A stretch of 41,434 bases of DNA from Candidatus Cloacimonadota bacterium. GTDB taxonomy: Bacteria > Cloacimonadota > Cloacimonadia > JGIOTU-2. The DNA lies in NCBI GenBank assembly GCA_030613025.1, contig JAUWMT010000023.1, forward strand, positions 1 to 41,434. Reading direction: 5' to 3'. Shown here piece by piece: positions 6,885 to 41,114 of this stretch. Made by a program: the position numbers and the translations under genes. The notes under the pieces are model-generated. The model saw nothing but the letters and a program-made list of their open reading frames with translations, had not been told where the DNA came from and did not search any database. The first letter of the stretch is position 1, and every line of letters begins with the position of its first letter.

Positions 6885-8108
6885 TTACACAAAACTTCGC
6901 TCCCTGGCATATTTAAAAATAAGCCCCATTGAAACCATATTAACAAGCAAACTACTTCCTCCGTAACTGATAAAAGGAAGTGGGATTCCTACAACAGGAA
7001 TGATCCCGATATTCATACCGATGTTCACGACTATCTGAAATATAAAATATGAGAGAATGCCTGCAATGACAAGTCTTTGCTTATCGATCCTGATTTTTCT
7101 CAGGATTATGACAATACGCCAGATAAGCACCGTAAAAAGAATGAGCAGAATAAAACATCCAATGAAACCGAGTTCTTCTCCTATCACTGAGAAAATAAAA
7201 TCCGTTTGCTGTTCCGGCAAAAAATTCAAATTCTTCTGAGTTCCTTGCAAAAAACCCTTACCAAAAATACCTCCGGACCCGATAGCGATCTTTGACTGTA
7301 TGATCTGATACCCGCTTCCGAGCACGTCGAATTTAGGGTTGATGAAGGCAAGTATGCGGTTTCGCTGATACTCATGCAGGGTCCACCACATGTATGGGGT
7401 TACTAATGAAATGAAGGCATTTCCTGCCAGTATAGCTCCTGCAGGGAGCAATGATACTTTTCGGAAGATCAGCACAAGAAGAAGAAATATATCAAAGATT
7501 ATCCAATAGGTGATATTGAAACCCACAAGTACGCTTACAAGCGGGGTGATAATAATAAATATAGTAAAAAAAGATACACCTGCAAAATACATCATTGGAA
7601 ATAGGATTGCGAAAAACACAAGCGCACTTCCCAGATCCGGTTGCCTTAGCACAAGAAGAGCCGGAAGTATAGCTATGAGGAAGCCGTAGAGCACGATCTT
7701 GTAAGTGGGTATATATTTGGCTGAAAATACTTTTGCGAGAAGGAATATCACCCCGATCTTTGCAAACTCAGCTGGCTGAACATAGACACTTCCCAAACTT
7801 ATCCATCGGTGAACCCCCTTTATTGAAGGAAGGAGCAACACGACAATAAGTAATATAAAGATCAGGATGTTATATGGAACAATAAGCAGGTCTAAAATTA
7901 CATCGGGAATATATAGTATGGTGAAAAAAACAGCAAAGCCCAGAACTATCCAGATAAGCTGTTTCACATAATAATCGCTTACAATTATCTTCTCGCCAAC
8001 CCTCTGCACAGACGCACTATAAAGTGCAAGTTCACCGAACACCAAAAGAATCAGAAGAATTGCCATCAGCTTCCAGTCAAATTTCTGAATGATCTCTGTT
8101 GAACTCAT
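6885..8108 (-). CDS. rodA: Rod-shape determining glycosyltransferase RodA (SEDS family)
   Basis: SEDS peptidoglycan polymerase of the elongasome, which works with PBP2 in the inner membrane. 407 residues with about ten transmembrane helices. Family marks: LALYSAS near residue 27-33, RWISLG...QPAEFAKIG (about 105-125), LRQPDLGSALV (about 154-164), the GSGGIFGKGFLQGTQKNLNFLPEQQTDFIFSVIGEELGF block (about 277-315) and the C-terminal GIPLPFISYGGSSLL. The FLPEQQTDFIF form and the lack of FtsW-type features favour RodA over FtsW. It starts at the base following the comM stop (TAA-ATG). Its partner mrdA is about 28 kb away on the other side of dnaA. Confidence 0.92.
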   Translation of the reverse strand: MSSTEIIQKFDWKLMAILLILLVFGELALYSASVQRVGEKIIVSDYYVKQLIWIVLGFAVFFTILYIPDVILDLLIVPYNILIFILLIVVLLLPSIKGVHRWISLGSVYVQPAEFAKIGVIFLLAKVFSAKYIPTYKIVLYGFLIAILPALLVLRQPDLGSALVFFAILFPMMYFAGVSFFTIFIIITPLVSVLVGFNITYWIIFDIFLLLVLIFRKVSLLPAGAILAGNAFISLVTPYMWWTLHEYQRNRILAFINPKFDVLGSGYQIIQSKIAIGSGGIFGKGFLQGTQKNLNFLPEQQTDFIFSVIGEELGFIGCFILLILFTVLIWRIVIILRKIRIDKQRLVIAGILSYFIFQIVVNIGMNIGIIPVVGIPLPFISYGGSSLLVNMVSMGLIFKYARERSFV

Positions 8109-9653
8109 TTATACCCAGTATTTCCTGTCTAAGCTACGGTATTGGATTGCTTCGCTGATGTAGGCGGGAGTGATTTTTTCGCTTTTATCAAGGTCTGCAA
8201 TAGTTCTGGAAACTTTCAGGATGCGGTCATAGGCACGGGCGGAAAGTCCAAGTTTTTCAATAGCTATCTTCATGAGCTTTTTGCCATCTTCATCGATCTG
8301 GCAGAACTCTCGGATCTGTTTTGATTCCATATCCGCATTTGAGTAGATTTTCTTTGAACCTGCAAAGCGCCGGTGTTGAGCATCTCGAGCAGTATTCACT
8401 CTTTCCTGTATGATATCTGACCTTTCACCTTTTGGATCTCTTGAGAGCTCATCATATTTCACGGCAGGTACTTCAACATGAATATCTATACGGTCAAGAA
8501 GGGGTCCTGAGATCCTTGAAACATACTTTTGTATCATTGTCGTAGAGCAGGTACAGGTGTGCCCTTCCACATTACTCCCGTAATAGCCGCAGGGGCAGGG
8601 ATTCATGGATGCTACTAGCATGAAGTTTGCAGGGAAAGTTAGGGATTGAACAGCTCTTGATATTGTGACAACGCCATCCTCAAGTGGTTGCCTGAGCACC
8701 TCAAGTACGGATTTTTTAAATTCCGGCAGTTCGTCCAAAAAGAGCACTCCGTTATGGGCAAGAGAAACTTCTCCGGGTTTTGGATAGCTTCCTCCGCCGA
8801 TGAGTGCAACATCACTAATAGTATGATGTGGTGAGCGGAAAGGTCTGGTTGCTATCAGGGAATGCTCGCGGGCAATTTTCCCTGCGACAGAATGGATCTT
8901 TGTGGTTGTTAGTGCTTCATCGAGAGTGAGTTGGGGGAGAATGGTAGGAACTCTTTTGGCAATCATTGTTTTTCCCGAGCCGGGAGGTCCTATCATAAGA
9001 ATATTATGACTTCCGGCTGCAGCAACTTCCATAGCACGCTTTACACTATATTGTCCTTTCACATCGAACATATCGATGGTCTCTCTGAGCTCCTTTTCAA
9101 AAAGAGTAGAAATGTCAACGCTTAATGGCTCTATCGCTTCTCGCCCTTCCACAAAAGCAATGCATTCGGAAAGGGTTTTTACGGGATAGATTGAAATTCC
9201 TTCCACGACAGCGGCTTCATTTGCATTATCTTCAGGAACGATCAATCCCTCCAGTCCCTTCTCTTTTGCTGCAATAGTAATTGGCAGAATACCCCTTACC
9301 GGATGAACTTCGCCATTCAGGGAAAGCTCTCCAGTCATGCCAACTGTTTCCAGAATAACCGGATATATCTGCCGAAGTGAAGAGAGCATACCGATAGCGA
9401 TCGGCAGATCAAACCCGACACCTTCTTTTTTTACATCTGCGGGTGCGAGATTCACAGTATATGCACGTGCCGGCTTCTTGTATCCATTATTCTTTATTGC
9501 AGCGGTAACCCTGTCTTTACTCTCTTTGACCGAATTCGTCGGCAGACCGACCATTGTGAAATAGGGCATTGAGGTGTGTTTTGTGTCGACTTCCACTTCA
9601 ATGGGAATGGCATCGATACCTAAAATTGAAAAAGAAATGACTTTTGTAAACAT
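8109..9653 (-). CDS. comM: YifB/ComM-family AAA+ (Mg-chelatase-like) ATPase
   Basis: ComM is a hexameric helicase that promotes branch migration during natural transformation; many bacteria outside Pasteurellales carry it. The protein has an N-terminal Lon-protease-like domain ([15 protein letters not shown]...[13 protein letters not shown]), Walker A GPPGSGKT at about 222-229 of the 514-residue form, Walker [10 protein letters not shown], and a C-terminal Mg-chelatase domain ([18 protein letters not shown]). A zinc-like CPCGYYG...CTCS stretch is present, as usual. The open frame extends 35 codons further upstream, but those run toward the tRNA pseudogene and lack similarity, so I start at ATG 9653, where family members begin with M.(T/S)K..S..ILGI. 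No clear ribosome binding site is seen. Confidence 0.93.
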
Positions 9654-32069: not shown

Positions 32070-33101
32070 ATGTTTTGGGATTTTATTTTAAACTGGTTAA
32101 CAAATGATGTAGCGATTGATCTGGGTACAGCGAATACGCTTGTGTATCTGAGGGGGCAGGGGGTTGTGGTCAACGAACCATCGGTGGTGGCACTGGAAAC
32201 GGAATCCAAAAAGGTCATTGCAATTGGATACAAAGCAAAAGAGATGCTGGGAAAGACACCTGAAGAGATCATAGCGATCAAGCCCATGAAAGACGGGGTG
32301 ATCGCTAACTTTGAGATCACAGAAACGATGCTGCGTCACCTTATTCTTCAGTCTCAGCAGAAAAAGTTCTTGATTAGACCCAGAGTGATCGTTGCAGTGC
32401 CCTCAGGTATTACAGAGGTGGAGAAGCGAGCAGTCAAAGAATCAGCAGAACATGCTGGAGCAAGAACAGTGTATCTTGTTTCTGAACCCCTTGCTTCAGC
32501 GATTGGAGTCGGACTGCCGATACACGAACCTTACGGTAATATGATCATAGATATCGGCGGAGGAACCACAGAGATCGCAATTATTTCGTTGTCTCATATT
32601 GTTGACCACAACTCCATCCGAATCGGCGGCGATGAGATGGATGAAGCAATAGTTGCTTATCTCAGGAGGAAACACAACCTCTACATCGGAGAGGCAACCG
32701 CAGAACGAATAAAAATTAAGATCGGTTCTGCCTGTCCACTTGAAGATGAGTTGACAATGGAAGTTCGCGGAAGAGATCTTATCACAGGATTTCCTGTTTC
32801 AATGAAAATATCCTCCGAAGAGATCAGGGATGGATTAACAGACACGGTGAATAAGATCGTAGATGCAGTCAAACGCCTTTTCGAAGAAACGGCACCGGAG
32901 CTTTCTGCAGATATAGCTGATAGAGGTGTGGTTTTGACCGGAGGAGCAGGCCTGCTTAAAGGGCTTGATAAAAAGATACAGGAGACTATCAATCTTCCTG
33001 TGACGCTTGTGGACGAGCCCCTAATCAGCGTGGTCATGGGGTGCGGCAAGATTTTGGATAATCTCGAAGAATACGAAAAAGTCCTTTTACCAAAGGTATA
33101 A
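32070..33101 (+). CDS. mreB: Rod-shape actin homologue MreB
   Basis: 343 residues; actin-like ATPase that guides the elongasome. Motifs: phosphate-1 AIDLGTANTLVYLRGQGVV, ADP-binding MIIDIGGGTTEIAIISL (about 154-170), IRIGGDEMDEAI, and VVLTGGAGLLKGLD near 290. First gene of a mreB-mreC-CofE-like-mreD-mrdA operon. An AAGGAG site lies before the ATG. Confidence 0.97.
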   Translation: MFWDFILNWLTNDVAIDLGTANTLVYLRGQGVVVNEPSVVALETESKKVIAIGYKAKEMLGKTPEEIIAIKPMKDGVIANFEITETMLRHLILQSQQKKFLIRPRVIVAVPSGITEVEKRAVKESAEHAGARTVYLVSEPLASAIGVGLPIHEPYGNMIIDIGGGTTEIAIISLSHIVDHNSIRIGGDEMDEAIVAYLRRKHNLYIGEATAERIKIKIGSACPLEDELTMEVRGRDLITGFPVSMKISSEEIRDGLTDTVNKIVDAVKRLFEETAPELSADIADRGVVLTGGAGLLKGLDKKIQETINLPVTLVDEPLISVVMGCGKILDNLEEYEKVLLPKV

Positions 33102-33131: not shown

Positions 33132-33899
33132 ATGTTCACCAGAAGAAACATTGTTTTCGGTATCCTTTTTGTTTTCTCAATTTTTTTTATAATTGGAAAC
33201 AATGAGGAGAGAATAAAAAAAGCACAATTTGTCGGCAACACAATTCTGTTACCCTTTTCATCAAGTATAACCTATATAAAAAATCTCTCAAATGTGTATC
33301 AAAGGAATAATTATTTGCAGAGAGAGCTCTTTCTTGCACAGAACGAACTGAGAATGTTTAAAGAAGAGCTTCAAGAACAGCAGAGATTTGAAGAACTGGT
33401 CCAAAATATTGATATTTCCAGCTATGAATTTTTGATAGCAGATGTAGTTGGAACAGGATCGTTCCTTAATTATGAAACTCTCATTGTTGACGCAGGGAAG
33501 AATAGGAATATACAGACCAATCAACCGGTTATATCCGAAAAAGGACTTGTCGGAAAAGTAATAGCAGTTTACCCGAACTATTCAGTAGTACAGACATTCG
33601 GGAATAAATATTTCAGACTTGGTGCGATCGACAGCAGAAGCAGGATACACGGCATTGTGGAAACGGAATTAAATGGGAAAATATATTTTGAAAAGATCAA
33701 GGTTGGAAGCGATTTGAAGACAGGAGATGTGATCGTTTCATCAAAATTGAGCTCGATCTACCCTCCCGAACTCCCATTTGGAAAGATCATTGAGATCGAA
33801 CAAAGCAGCGAAGGGTTTTTTACGAGAGCGGAGATCGAACCCTTTGTAAATCTGGCAAATATCGAGACAGTAGCAATAATACAGAAATATGAGCAATAG
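33132..33899 (+). CDS. mreC: Rod-shape-determining protein MreC
   Basis: 255 residues. N-terminal TM (about 8-22), a coiled coil (about 45-85), then the MreC beta domain with typical VVGTGSFLNYETLIVDAGKNRNIQTNQPVISEKGLVGKVIAVYPNYSVVQT...SRIHGIVETE and the closing DLKTGDVIVSSKLSSIYPPELPFGKI. MreC links MreB to PBP2 in the periplasm. It ends in TAG, overlapping the next gene by 11 bases. Confidence 0.93.
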   Translation: MFTRRNIVFGILFVFSIFFIIGNNEERIKKAQFVGNTILLPFSSSITYIKNLSNVYQRNNYLQRELFLAQNELRMFKEELQEQQRFEELVQNIDISSYEFLIADVVGTGSFLNYETLIVDAGKNRNIQTNQPVISEKGLVGKVIAVYPNYSVVQTFGNKYFRLGAIDSRSRIHGIVETELNGKIYFEKIKVGSDLKTGDVIVSSKLSSIYPPELPFGKIIEIEQSSEGFFTRAEIEPFVNLANIETVAIIQKYEQ

Positions 33900-34569
33900 T
33901 ATCACAGAACGAAGTGTCGGCGCGAAAGTCTATTTAAGACAGCCGATAAAAACGAAAATATTAACTCCGGAAGATGATATTATAGATATCGTTCTGGAAT
34001 ACACCGAAGGAAAACGAAAGAAGAACGATATTGTTATCATGAGCGAAAGCCCGGTAGCGATAACTCAAGGAAGAGCTGTTCTGGAAGACGAGATCAAGAT
34101 TGGGCTTCTATCAAAACTTCTCTGGCGCTGCGTGGGCAAGGTGCCCTATGGCATTGGATTACGCTCCAAAACAAGCATGCAATGTGCCATAGACGAGTGC
34201 GGGCATGTAAGAATAATCGTAGCAGCTATAGCCGGAGCTATCGGGAAATTATTTGGGATACATGGTGTGTTTTACCGCGTTGCCGGCAAGCAGGCAGCCC
34301 TGGTCGATGCAGCTCATACTTCTCCCGTGCCCCCTTATAACACAACGGTTATAAAAGGACCAATTCATACAGATGAGATATGTCAGAAGATCCATGAAAT
34401 GACAGGGAACGAAGCCGCGATCATGGATATTAACGACATTGGCGGTTCGTGGGTTATCGGCAGATCTGCAGGTGTTGATGCTCAGCTTCTTGAAGAAATT
34501 ATGCGAGATAATCCACAGGGACAGCAGATGGAACTCACACCCTTGTGCCTTGTTTGGGAGAAGCAATGA
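33889..34569 (+). CDS. CofE-like (F420-0:gamma-glutamyl ligase family) protein inside the mre operon
   Basis: 226 residues of the F420_ligase (CofE) type: KKNDIVIMSESPVAITQGRAVLED (matches the GD.VV.sEK.VA...GR region), AAIAGAIGKLFGIHGVFYRVAGKQAALVDAA, PPYNTTVIKGP, and DINDIGGSWVIGRSAGVD near 180-197. Classical CofE adds glutamate to the F420 tail, but many bacteria without F420 carry homologues of unknown role. Here it overlaps mreC by 11 bases and mreD by 4 (ATGA), so it is translationally built into the shape operon. A ligase acting on cell-wall precursors or a tetrahydrofolate-like substrate is possible; I cannot say which. No other F420 gene is in the window. Confidence 0.75.
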   Translation: MSNSITERSVGAKVYLRQPIKTKILTPEDDIIDIVLEYTEGKRKKNDIVIMSESPVAITQGRAVLEDEIKIGLLSKLLWRCVGKVPYGIGLRSKTSMQCAIDECGHVRIIVAAIAGAIGKLFGIHGVFYRVAGKQAALVDAAHTSPVPPYNTTVIKGPIHTDEICQKIHEMTGNEAAIMDINDIGGSWVIGRSAGVDAQLLEEIMRDNPQGQQMELTPLCLVWEKQ

Positions 34570-35048
34570 TTACTCTCATTCTCGTTACCATATTCACGGT
34601 CTATTTTCAATATTTCTTTGCAGCTTCCCTTGGATTGTGGGAAACGACCCCCAACCTTTTGTTACCCCTGATCATTTATTACAGTATCACACGCGAGAAT
34701 ATTTCGGGCTTTGTGCTTGCCTTCTTACTTGGAATTATTATAGATCTAAATCAGCCATCAACTTTTGGCGTTTCGTCTCTACTTTTCCTCATTATTGCCT
34801 TTTCACTCGGTAAGCTCAAGAAATTGCTCGGCAGGCAGTTGGTGGGAGTAGGAATTGCGCTGCTTCTTGCCACAAACCTATTTTATTTTTTACTTTCATC
34901 ATTAATATTCCTAGTATTTAATGCAGGTGATGCGCTGGCATTTGGAAAGATAATGGTTCTTACTCTATATAACTCCGTGTATTCGCTCATAATAATACTT
35001 CTTTTATACCTGATAGACCATCTTAAACTAAGCTTTACCCAAAAATGA
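34566..35048 (+). CDS. mreD: Rod-shape-determining protein MreD
   Basis: 160 residues from ATG 34566, chosen because GGGAG lies ahead of it and it overlaps the previous stop as ATGA; the frame extends seven codons further upstream. About five TM helices with the MreD pattern of a short N-terminus, a conserved NLLLPLIIYYSI stretch, GFVLAFLLGIIIDLNQPSTFGVSSLLF and a final FNAGDALAFGKIMVLTLYNSVYSLIIILLLYLI. Small integral-membrane component of the elongasome. Its stop overlaps mrdA by four bases (ATGA). Confidence 0.85.
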   Translation: MITLILVTIFTVYFQYFFAASLGLWETTPNLLLPLIIYYSITRENISGFVLAFLLGIIIDLNQPSTFGVSSLLFLIIAFSLGKLKKLLGRQLVGVGIALLLATNLFYFLLSSLIFLVFNAGDALAFGKIMVLTLYNSVYSLIIILLLYLIDHLKLSFTQK

Positions 35049-36805
35049 AAAGAAAGCTGAAAAAAGCTGACCAGCTACTTATACTTGTACTGGTTCTTTT
35101 CATTATTCTCACCTATTTTTTATTTCAGACACAGGTTATAAAGGGCAATGAGTATAAAGAAATCGCCGAGAAGAACTACTTTCGTATCATAAAAAAACCA
35201 GCCCGCCGTGGCATCTTGTACGACTGCAATATGCAGCCACTTACAGAGAACATACCTTCTCTTTCGGTTTATATTGATATAAAAGAAATTACTGATGCCG
35301 ACAGCGTAGCAGCTTTCGTTTCGATAAATCTTGGAGTTCCCGCAGAGGAAATTACCGAGCTCATCTACAAACACAGGTTTTTCAAATTTGCACCGATTCT
35401 TGTCAGGGATAAAATTGATATGGAAACTGCGATTATACTTGAGGAGCAGTGCGAAGCATACCCGGCGATTATTATTAAGCCGGAAGCAATCAGGTATTAT
35501 GACCTCAACTCTCATTATATTGGATATGTGGGAAAAATGTCATCAGCAGAATACCAGCAGCATAAAGGAAGCGATTATTCTAAGACGGATTATATTGGGA
35601 AAGTGGGCTTGGAAAAATGCTATGAGGCAGAGCTCAAAGGAGAAAAGGGATACGATATCATTCAGGTGGACGCAACAGGTCGTCCGCTCGGACTAATGAA
35701 GGAAAATACGGGAAAGCAATCTCTACCCGGCAAAGACTTTGTGCTTACGGTCGATAAAAACCTTCAAGAAAAAATTGCTCGATTGCTACCTAAAGACACA
35801 TCGGCTGTGGCTATTGTAATGAATTGCAAAACCGGCGGAGTTGTGGCAATGGTGAGCACCCCAGAATATAATCCCAATTATTTTGTCACAGGAATGAATG
35901 AGGATTATTGGAACCAGATAGTAGAGGATGAAAACAATCCTTTGCTGAACAAAGCGATGAATGCAACATACCCGCCGGGTTCAGTTTTTAAGCTGGTTGT
36001 AGCCGCTTATGCCTTGGAAAAGGACCTAGTTGAACCCTACGAAATTCTCGTAGATTGCGAGGGGGGAGTAGAATACGGGGGAAGATTTTTCGGTTGCTGG
36101 AAAAAGAAAGGTCACGGAAAAGTGAATCTTCTTGATGCCTTAAGAGAATCCTGCAATACCTACTTTTACAAGATCGCTGAAATGATCGATTTGAATGATT
36201 TTAAGAAATTTATTGAGGATTGCAATCTCCTGGAAAGCATTCCTATTAATCAAATTCGTAGCAGAAGGGGCTTTTTCCCAACTTCGGAATGGTATGACAG
36301 AAATTATGGAAAATTGGGATGGACCAGGGGCAACCTGCTGAATCTTTGTATCGGGCAGGGCGAAGTGCTTCTCACACCATTATCATTAGCGTGTTTTTAT
36401 GCCGGCATTGCCAACAACGGAATTGTACACAGACCACATTTTGTAGATTATGCAATCGGGGATGAGATTATGGAGACCTTTAAATATCCTCAATTAAGGC
36501 TACCCATTTCTCAGAACACGCTCGACATTTTAAAGCAGTCTTTATACGAAGCGGTAAATGCAAAGGGAAGAACAGGCGGTATGGCTCGAGTAAAAGATAT
36601 AATGGTCGGTGGAAAGACTGGATCTGCAGAAAATTATTATGGAGATACCCATGCCTGGTTCGTTGCTGTCGCTCCAATGAATGACCCCGAGATAGTTGTG
36701 CTCGTGTTTGTGGAGCAGAGTGGATCGGGAGCAGACATTGCTGCAATGCTCGCGGGAAAGATATTAGGTTATTATTTTGAGAAAGAGCCGATACTGAGAT
36801 ATTAA
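35045..36805 (+). CDS. mrdA: Penicillin-binding protein 2
   Basis: 586 residues; monofunctional transpeptidase of the elongasome. N-terminal TM about 10-28; dimerisation domain with RRGILYD (about 54-60) and YIGKVGLEKCYEAELKGEKG; transpeptidase motifs SxxK at 313-316 (PPGSVFKL), SxN at 369-371 (SCNTYFYK) and KTG at 525-527 (GGKTGSAEN). Its SEDS partner RodA is encoded far away at 6885-8108. It is the last gene of the mre operon. Confidence 0.95.
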   Translation: MKRKLKKADQLLILVLVLFIILTYFLFQTQVIKGNEYKEIAEKNYFRIIKKPARRGILYDCNMQPLTENIPSLSVYIDIKEITDADSVAAFVSINLGVPAEEITELIYKHRFFKFAPILVRDKIDMETAIILEEQCEAYPAIIIKPEAIRYYDLNSHYIGYVGKMSSAEYQQHKGSDYSKTDYIGKVGLEKCYEAELKGEKGYDIIQVDATGRPLGLMKENTGKQSLPGKDFVLTVDKNLQEKIARLLPKDTSAVAIVMNCKTGGVVAMVSTPEYNPNYFVTGMNEDYWNQIVEDENNPLLNKAMNATYPPGSVFKLVVAAYALEKDLVEPYEILVDCEGGVEYGGRFFGCWKKKGHGKVNLLDALRESCNTYFYKIAEMIDLNDFKKFIEDCNLLESIPINQIRSRRGFFPTSEWYDRNYGKLGWTRGNLLNLCIGQGEVLLTPLSLACFYAGIANNGIVHRPHFVDYAIGDEIMETFKYPQLRLPISQNTLDILKQSLYEAVNAKGRTGGMARVKDIMVGGKTGSAENYYGDTHAWFVAVAPMNDPEIVVLVFVEQSGSGADIAAMLAGKILGYYFEKEPILRY

Positions 36806-40448: not shown

Positions 40449-41114
40449 CTAATCTACCGGAAGAGTAATTTTAAAACCGCACTCATCATCACCAAGAAAA
40501 ACACTTTTTTGTACCTCGATTTCAACCGGTTTTTGCAGAATTGTTTCCCAAATGTTTTTATAAAACCCAGCGCCGCAATAGCAGTAATTCGCAGGAATGC
40601 TTTTGCCTAACTTCACCGCATCCCGAATTCTTGGGCAGTGGCAGTATATCTCTCTTCGTTTTTCCGGATCCTTTTCATCCAGATATTGTTTCAGATAATC
40701 GCTTTTTGGAATTTTAGCCGCAATGACCGTATTTCCCTTTTTGAATCCTGCAACGCCCCATCCTCTACGTTTCACTTCAGCGATCATTTTCTCGTCGAGC
40801 TTCAATACATTTCGAAGAAAACCTTCAAATTTTTCCTGTAATTTACTATGAACGAGATCGCTGTCCCCTGTTTCTGCATAAAGCTGCTTAAATTCTTCAA
40901 GCTCTGATTGGGGATAGTGGCACGCACACCCAAGCATGATTTTGCCGACCATACTATCGTCCATAAATCTTTCTAACCGATCCAAAGCACGCTGCGTCCA
41001 GGATATGATTTCTTCAGAACTAGATTTTGAGGTTAGATGTTCTGCCCCTTTAATTACCCTTTGAGCTGTTTCCTCATCGCTGTGCCCGATTATGGATTTG
41101 TAAAATTTGTTCAA
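40449..41114 (-). CDS. Cysteine-rich conserved protein (possibly DUF6144-like)
   Basis: 221 residues as read from a TTG at 41114. Seven cysteines, six of them in CxC pairs: Cys63/65 (GCACHYP), Cys158/160 (YCHCP), Cys178/180 (YCYCG) and Cys212 (GDDECGFKI). This suggests metal or iron-sulfur binding or disulphide chemistry. The C-terminus (VEIEVQKSVFLGDDECGFKITLP) resembles the end of small-molecule-binding domains of the 4-vinyl-reductase or DUF6144 kind; the name is uncertain. In-frame upstream of the TTG is a TAG (41115-41117) and ten codons that begin with an ATG (41145-41147) behind GGAGG. The natural start was probably that ATG, making this an interrupted gene, or translation restarts at the TTG. 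Confidence 0.6.
   Translation of the reverse strand: MNKFYKSIIGHSDEETAQRVIKGAEHLTSKSSSEEIISWTQRALDRLERFMDDSMVGKIMLGCACHYPQSELEEFKQLYAETGDSDLVHSKLQEKFEGFLRNVLKLDEKMIAEVKRRGWGVAGFKKGNTVIAAKIPKSDYLKQYLDEKDPEKRREIYCHCPRIRDAVKLGKSIPANYCYCGAGFYKNIWETILQKPVEIEVQKSVFLGDDECGFKITLPVD

Follow-up and report, generated by a model that had tools for sequence, protein, structure and literature searches.

A conserved CofE-fold protein of a separate branch, encoded between mreC and mreD in Cloacimonadota

The CofE fold has been characterised for the F420 pathway and for one substitution, in the folate metabolism of Chlamydia. The fold is represented by CofE itself and by the N-terminal domain of FbiB (PF01996, TIGR01916, PDB 2phn). 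Structures of CofE show two Mn ions, GTP and an elongated site at the dimer interface, and F420 is contacted by a domain-swapped beta-hairpin, by G153-C155 and by R234 (PMC10861534). The chlamydial protein, FolC2 (CT611, TIGR04132), is a putative folate gamma-glutamate ligase and thus a non-F420 use of the same fold in bacteria that lack F420. A further group, the ~400-aa clostridial-type PF01996 proteins (here, class ii), branches apart from true CofE. Here, we describe another branch that stands apart from true CofE, which we label class iii, starting from a member, labelled X, that lies within an mre operon.

X is encoded in a window of 41,434 nt, i.e., the whole stretch of DNA that we analysed, from a Candidatus Cloacimonadota bacterium with a genome of 2.83 Mb that is 98% complete. 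The first-pass annotation had placed a CofE-like ORF between mreC and mreD, overlapping these genes by 11 and 4 bases, and coordinates and sequence agree with this. The relevant features are as follows:

32070..33101, + strand: mreB, upstream (MreB_Mbl, 466 bits)
33132..33899, + strand: mreC (MreC, 119.3 bits), its final 11 bases shared with X
33889..34569, + strand: X, the CofE-like class iii gene, ATG start, 226 aa (ORF, PF01996, AlphaFold2/Foldseek, tree)
34042..34074, + strand: SESPVAITQGR motif of X, residues 52-62, aligned with TQKIVSKAEGR of CofE (alignment A1, hhalign)
34306..34308, + strand: Asp140 of X, invariant in class iii and aligned with the Asp of CofE CANAGVDxSN (hhalign)
34426..34434, + strand: Asp180 and Asn182 of X, invariant in class iii, in an MDINDIGG block aligned with CofE ISDTFGRP (hhalign)
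34566..35048, + strand: mreD (MreD, 40.8 bits), its ATG overlapping the TGA of X (four shared bases, ATGA)
35045..36805, + strand: penicillin-binding protein 2, a class B PBP, downstream (Transpeptidase, 193 bits; PBP_dimer, 112 bits)

Elsewhere in the window, positions 40449-41114 of the reverse strand encode a Cys-rich DUF6144 protein (58.9 bits).

X matches the Pfam F420_ligase family, PF01996, at 28.5 bits (cut-off, 25) over N-terminal residues 20-103 only, and is the sole PF01996 match in its genome. No NCBIfam family matches it up to E 1, including the CofE model TIGR01916 and the folate-ligase model TIGR04132, and the closest outside relative scores 24 bits with TIGR01916, the cut-off of which is 181. 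A sequence search of the PDB returned only weak matches to cytidine deaminase and VirB2, nothing meaningful, so that a comparison of folds was needed. Two AlphaFold2 models of X, built from 22 and 36 sequences (pLDDT 86 and 92), match CofE structures only (2phn, 2g9i and 7uld; Foldseek prob 1.00). The best match is 2phn (E 3.8e-9 and 1e-7, TMq 0.62 and 0.61), the fold being shared over the whole length of X; across the CofE structures, TM is about 0.6 at 14-16% identity. Because the models match only CofE structures and all 22 phylum homologues in alignment A1 match PF01996, X is assigned to the CofE family at the level of predicted fold. Profile comparison agrees: aligned to true CofE by hhalign, class iii reaches Prob 95 (E 3e-8), compared with Prob <0.5 for MreB, MreC and MreD controls, a signal that came after divergent class iii members were added (the narrow alignment A1 gives Prob 1.9). 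Membership in the F420-0:gamma-glutamyl ligase family, as first annotated, is therefore right as a statement about fold. The best that current annotation pipelines would offer is the misleading label of F420 ligase.

Within this fold, class iii stands apart. Across 387 genomes searched with PF01996, true CofE proteins score about 155-254 bits and class ii proteins 134-196 bits; class iii proteins score ≤50 bits, mostly over their N-terminal part. Beyond the phylum, 262 genomes were sampled, and the A1 profile detects class iii in 21 of them. In a maximum-likelihood tree, all 28 class iii rows fall on one side of a branch with 99/99 support, on a long stem of uncertain depth. This clade excludes the Chlamydia-like FolC2 protein of G378, itself a long-branch row. 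Class ii proteins share a TES-x-VA-x-x-QG-like N-terminal motif with class iii (hhalign Prob 92) but are ~170 aa longer and form their own clade (100/100), and both types occur together in G376 and G285. Judged by its sequences, class iii is a distinct, strongly supported and previously uncharacterised branch of the CofE fold.

Across 36 class iii sequences, T22, G105, G126, F128, Y129, G133, D140, P158, D180, N182, N208, G211, T217 and P218 are invariant. The aspartates of the CofE motifs that align with D140 and the MDINDIGG block are presumably metal ligands in CofE. The comparison of active-site residues that the first-pass annotation had proposed gives a split result: D140 corresponds to the CANAGVD Asp, but the ISDT Asp falls on N182, with D180 and D183 close by, in an alignment of sequence profiles. 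Past the ISDT-like motif, the C-terminal region of class iii is shorter than that of CofE, and different (DNPxGxxxExTP). Some class iii proteins are extended at the N-terminus, with repeat-like helical segments, TPR-like by eye, in L136 (G285), L145 (G160) and L147 (G305), and with a membrane segment and an extra domain in L143 (G171) and L146 (G214).

The position of X is a feature of the phylum. Homologues are present in 97 of 125 Cloacimonadota genomes, 50-96% identical and in single copy except for split fragments. mre genes flank X on both sides, or on the single side that is on the contig, in each of the first 30 loci inspected. Among 80 separately fetched loci, 77 have the order mreB-mreC-X-mreD-pbp2, whole or as far as the contig reaches. 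Because of these counts, the mreC-X-mreD arrangement is phylum-wide and not due to chance; the first-pass annotation had allowed for an arrangement unique to this genome, and the same counts refute that. The start of mreD lies 4 bases within X in 29 of 75 measurable loci, and within a few bases in most of the others. Median pairwise identity in the same loci is 70% for MreB, 60% for X, 41% for PBP2, 31% for MreC and 26% for MreD. In the literature, of which our coverage was incomplete, we found no account of an F420 ligase associated with mreC-mreD. As for labelling, class iii genes also occur in L050 and L117, which bear the titles Armatimonadetes bin.262 and Desulfuromonas sp. SDB. L050 corresponds to a contig of the phylum genome G071, and its title is probably wrong.

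Not every member of the phylum retains X in this place. In nine genomes (G011, G019, G022, G024, G025, G030, G031, G032 and G055), mreB-mreC-mreD-pbp2 is intact and X is cleanly missing, with no X elsewhere in these genomes at E 0.001. In genus g14, G029, G033 and G034 hold X away from mre, alone among unrelated genes. MreB and X are both missing from five more genomes (G028, G035, G038, G062 and G063). Since the genes are neighbours, such joint absence can reflect either an assembly gap or joint loss; the count of losses comprises only the nine genomes with an intact mre operon and leaves out the five without mreB. By this distribution, X is ancestral in the mre operon yet dispensable. X-less operons, the three relocations and carriers without MreB (G376 and G239, outside the phylum) also rule X out as an obligate component of the Mre elongasome.

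F420 synthesis does not explain X. None of the 125 phylum genomes has CofD (TIGR01819), which indicates that the phylum does not make F420, and none of the 21 class iii carriers outside the phylum has it above the cut-off. Three genomes with true CofE served as positive controls and all yielded CofD: in two it passes the cut-off, and in the third it is a split match that falls just short. The initial remark that no F420 gene was in view extends to the whole genome, where X is the sole PF01996 protein and CofD is missing, and the idea that full F420 synthesis might run with X as the only CofE falls with it. Nor is X a replacement for FolC of the chlamydial type: FolC is above the cut-off in the host genome (G000:C24, 353 bits), in 106 of 125 phylum genomes and in 21 of 21 carriers elsewhere. 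The control genome with a Chlamydia-like FolC2 lacks FolC, as expected. Finally, MurC, MurD, MurE and MurF each pass the cut-off in the host genome, so X is not a stand-in for a lost Mur ligase.

Outside the phylum, class iii genes have other neighbours, with mreC or mreD adjacent in 0 of 20 loci. In G251, the class iii gene sits in a division and cell-wall (dcw) cluster, rsmH-ftsI-murE-murF-X-mraY-murD-ftsW. In G376 and G239, it follows lpxB, the Kdo transferase gene waaA and a lipid A acyltransferase gene. V-ATPase genes flank class iii in G141, G288, G422 and G411; in a sample of 80 genomes from the phylum of G141, class iii occurs in four, each time with V-ATPase neighbours. Other class iii genes are preceded by genes for an IspDF fusion and for a small membrane protein (G237 and G374), follow argD-argF with a class B PBP ~3 kb upstream (G253), or lie between scpB and the pseudouridine synthase gene rsuA (G154 and L117; products named by eye). 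In G160 and G305, a FolK-FolC-type gene lies within ~1.3 kb; that of G160 is a FolK-FolC-type fusion on the opposite strand. Three of the loci are specified here:

L144, reverse complement 7942-8637: class iii gene of G251, sharing 4 bases with each neighbour (ATGA with murF, GTGA with mraY)
L232, 3964-6723: AsnB-type amidotransferase::class iii fusion, 919 aa, downstream of dapB (Pfam) and before dapA (by eye)
L231, 79-2895: Fhs (formate-THF ligase), an FchA-type cyclohydrolase and class iii in series, on a gut contig

L231 and L232 are unverified metagenomic gut records labelled Bacteriophage sp., the remaining genes of which look bacterial. A search for mobile elements gave no plasmid match and no IMG/VR relative of class iii, and we reject spread on mobile elements. 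Enzymes of the AsnB/LtsA type are known to amidate the mDAP of peptidoglycan (PMC8554201, PMC7920481). They are unrelated to class iii in fold and chemistry (glutamine amidotransferase) but may be its functional company, since the fusion, on one unverified contig only, hints at the carboxylates of wall peptides. Overall, envelope contexts (mre, dcw, lpx, dap) recur beside folate, energy and housekeeping ones, and the independent contexts are too few for a formal test.

We tentatively propose that X is an active orphan CofE-fold amide ligase with an acceptor other than F420-0, most likely a cell-envelope (peptidoglycan) precursor, a reading that we rate as somewhat short of probable. By analogy with CofE, a nucleotide and two divalent metals would activate the carboxylate of the acceptor as an acyl phosphate, and an amino acid, probably glutamate, would attack the acyl phosphate to form an amide. 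X would have settled early in its place between mreC and mreD, its frame overlapping theirs, and hence be co-expressed with the cell-elongation machinery. We infer the ligase activity, the amino-acid donor and the envelope acceptor. The invariance of D140, D180, N182 and the TP pair in 36 sequences, together with the median identity of X, well above those of MreC and MreD, fits an enzyme under strong constraint. The F420-contacting parts of CofE belong mostly to its C-terminal half. Class iii is shorter there, as would suit a different acceptor. The same short C-terminal part, and the replacement of a CofE Asp by N182, would speak against a ligase, and catalysis is not assured. In its wider form, the proposal is that class iii is a new kind of envelope ligase, which would add an amino acid to peptidoglycan or another envelope precursor in bacteria without F420, and would be co-expressed with mre in Cloacimonadota and with murF-mraY elsewhere; we consider this possible but rather doubtful.

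The link to the envelope comes from mreC-X-mreD in 77 of 80 loci, murF-X-mraY in G251, lpxB-waaA-acyltransferase-X in G376 and dapB-AsnB::X-dapA. Against it stand the nine mre operons without X, the three relocated genes, the MreB-less carriers G376 and G239, and the V-ATPase, Fhs-FchA, argD-argF and scpB-rsuA contexts, which are not wall-related. The first-pass annotation had suggested glutamate ligation tied to wall elongation. Of this, glutamate ligation linked to elongation is possible and an envelope role is plausible in view of murF-X-mraY and of AsnB::X by dapB and dapA, but an obligate tie to elongation does not hold. Much of the opposing evidence would also suit a class iii that is a housekeeping CofE-fold ligase for a soluble cofactor or metabolite, its position in mre being an old insertion kept for expression with no functional tie to cell shape. 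In almost all other lineages the neighbours are different (V-ATPase, argF, scpB-rsuA, ispDF, Fhs), X has been cleanly lost or relocated several times within the phylum, and class iii occurs without MreB. Such a passenger, however, sits poorly with the phylum-wide retention of one position with overlapping frames, and the three further envelope contexts (murF-X-mraY, lpx/waa and dapB-AsnB::X-dapA) exceed what a random passenger would show, although the tally of independent contexts is small. We regard this alternative as a serious possibility, if clearly less than probable.

It is unlikely that class iii is a second folate enzyme, glutamylating tetrahydrofolates beside FolC in the way that FolC2 replaces FolC in Chlamydia. 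CT611, from the same superfamily, does complement E. coli folC (PMC1971073), and in L231 the class iii gene follows those for Fhs and FchA, and in G160 it is near the FolK-FolC-type fusion. But Chlamydia lacks FolC, whereas FolC is present in every carrier outside the phylum and in most Cloacimonadota, so there is no gap to fill; the class iii clade is also separate from the FolC2-like protein, and X matches no NCBIfam folate-ligase model. A still poorer prospect, which we consider very improbable, is that X is no longer catalytic and instead acts in the cytosol, binding MreC/MreD or the elongasome. In its favour, X is nested exactly between the genes of two interacting membrane proteins, and its similarity to PF01996 fades across the C-terminal half. 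An adaptor should drift with its partners, yet X is far better conserved than MreC and MreD, certain acidic and polar residues are invariant across unrelated lineages, and class iii also occurs without MreB.

What is new here is that a so far uncharacterised branch of a known fold occupies a fixed place in an operon where it would not be expected. Class iii forms a branch of its own, is deeply conserved, and occurs in bacteria without F420 that already possess FolC; it thereby points to an amide-forming reaction still to be assigned. Its nesting in peptidoglycan operons of two unrelated lineages is a testable hint of a missed modification of wall precursors.

Two further observations concern other ligases in these genomes. 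On contig C56 of the host genome (L228), at ~5.4-7 kb, the poly-gamma-glutamate synthase PgsB (TIGR04012, 417 bits against a cut-off of 223) is encoded immediately upstream of a membrane protein of 149 aa that resembles PgsC, a pair that, by sequence, suggests production of poly-gamma-glutamate. Many Cloacimonadota (G094-G102 and others) also encode an ORF of ~930 codons that weakly matches the Mur-ligase part of FolC, with 45-70 bits (e.g., the match at G102:C15:34822-35688); these frames are probably cyanophycin-synthetase-like proteins or fused Mur ligases.
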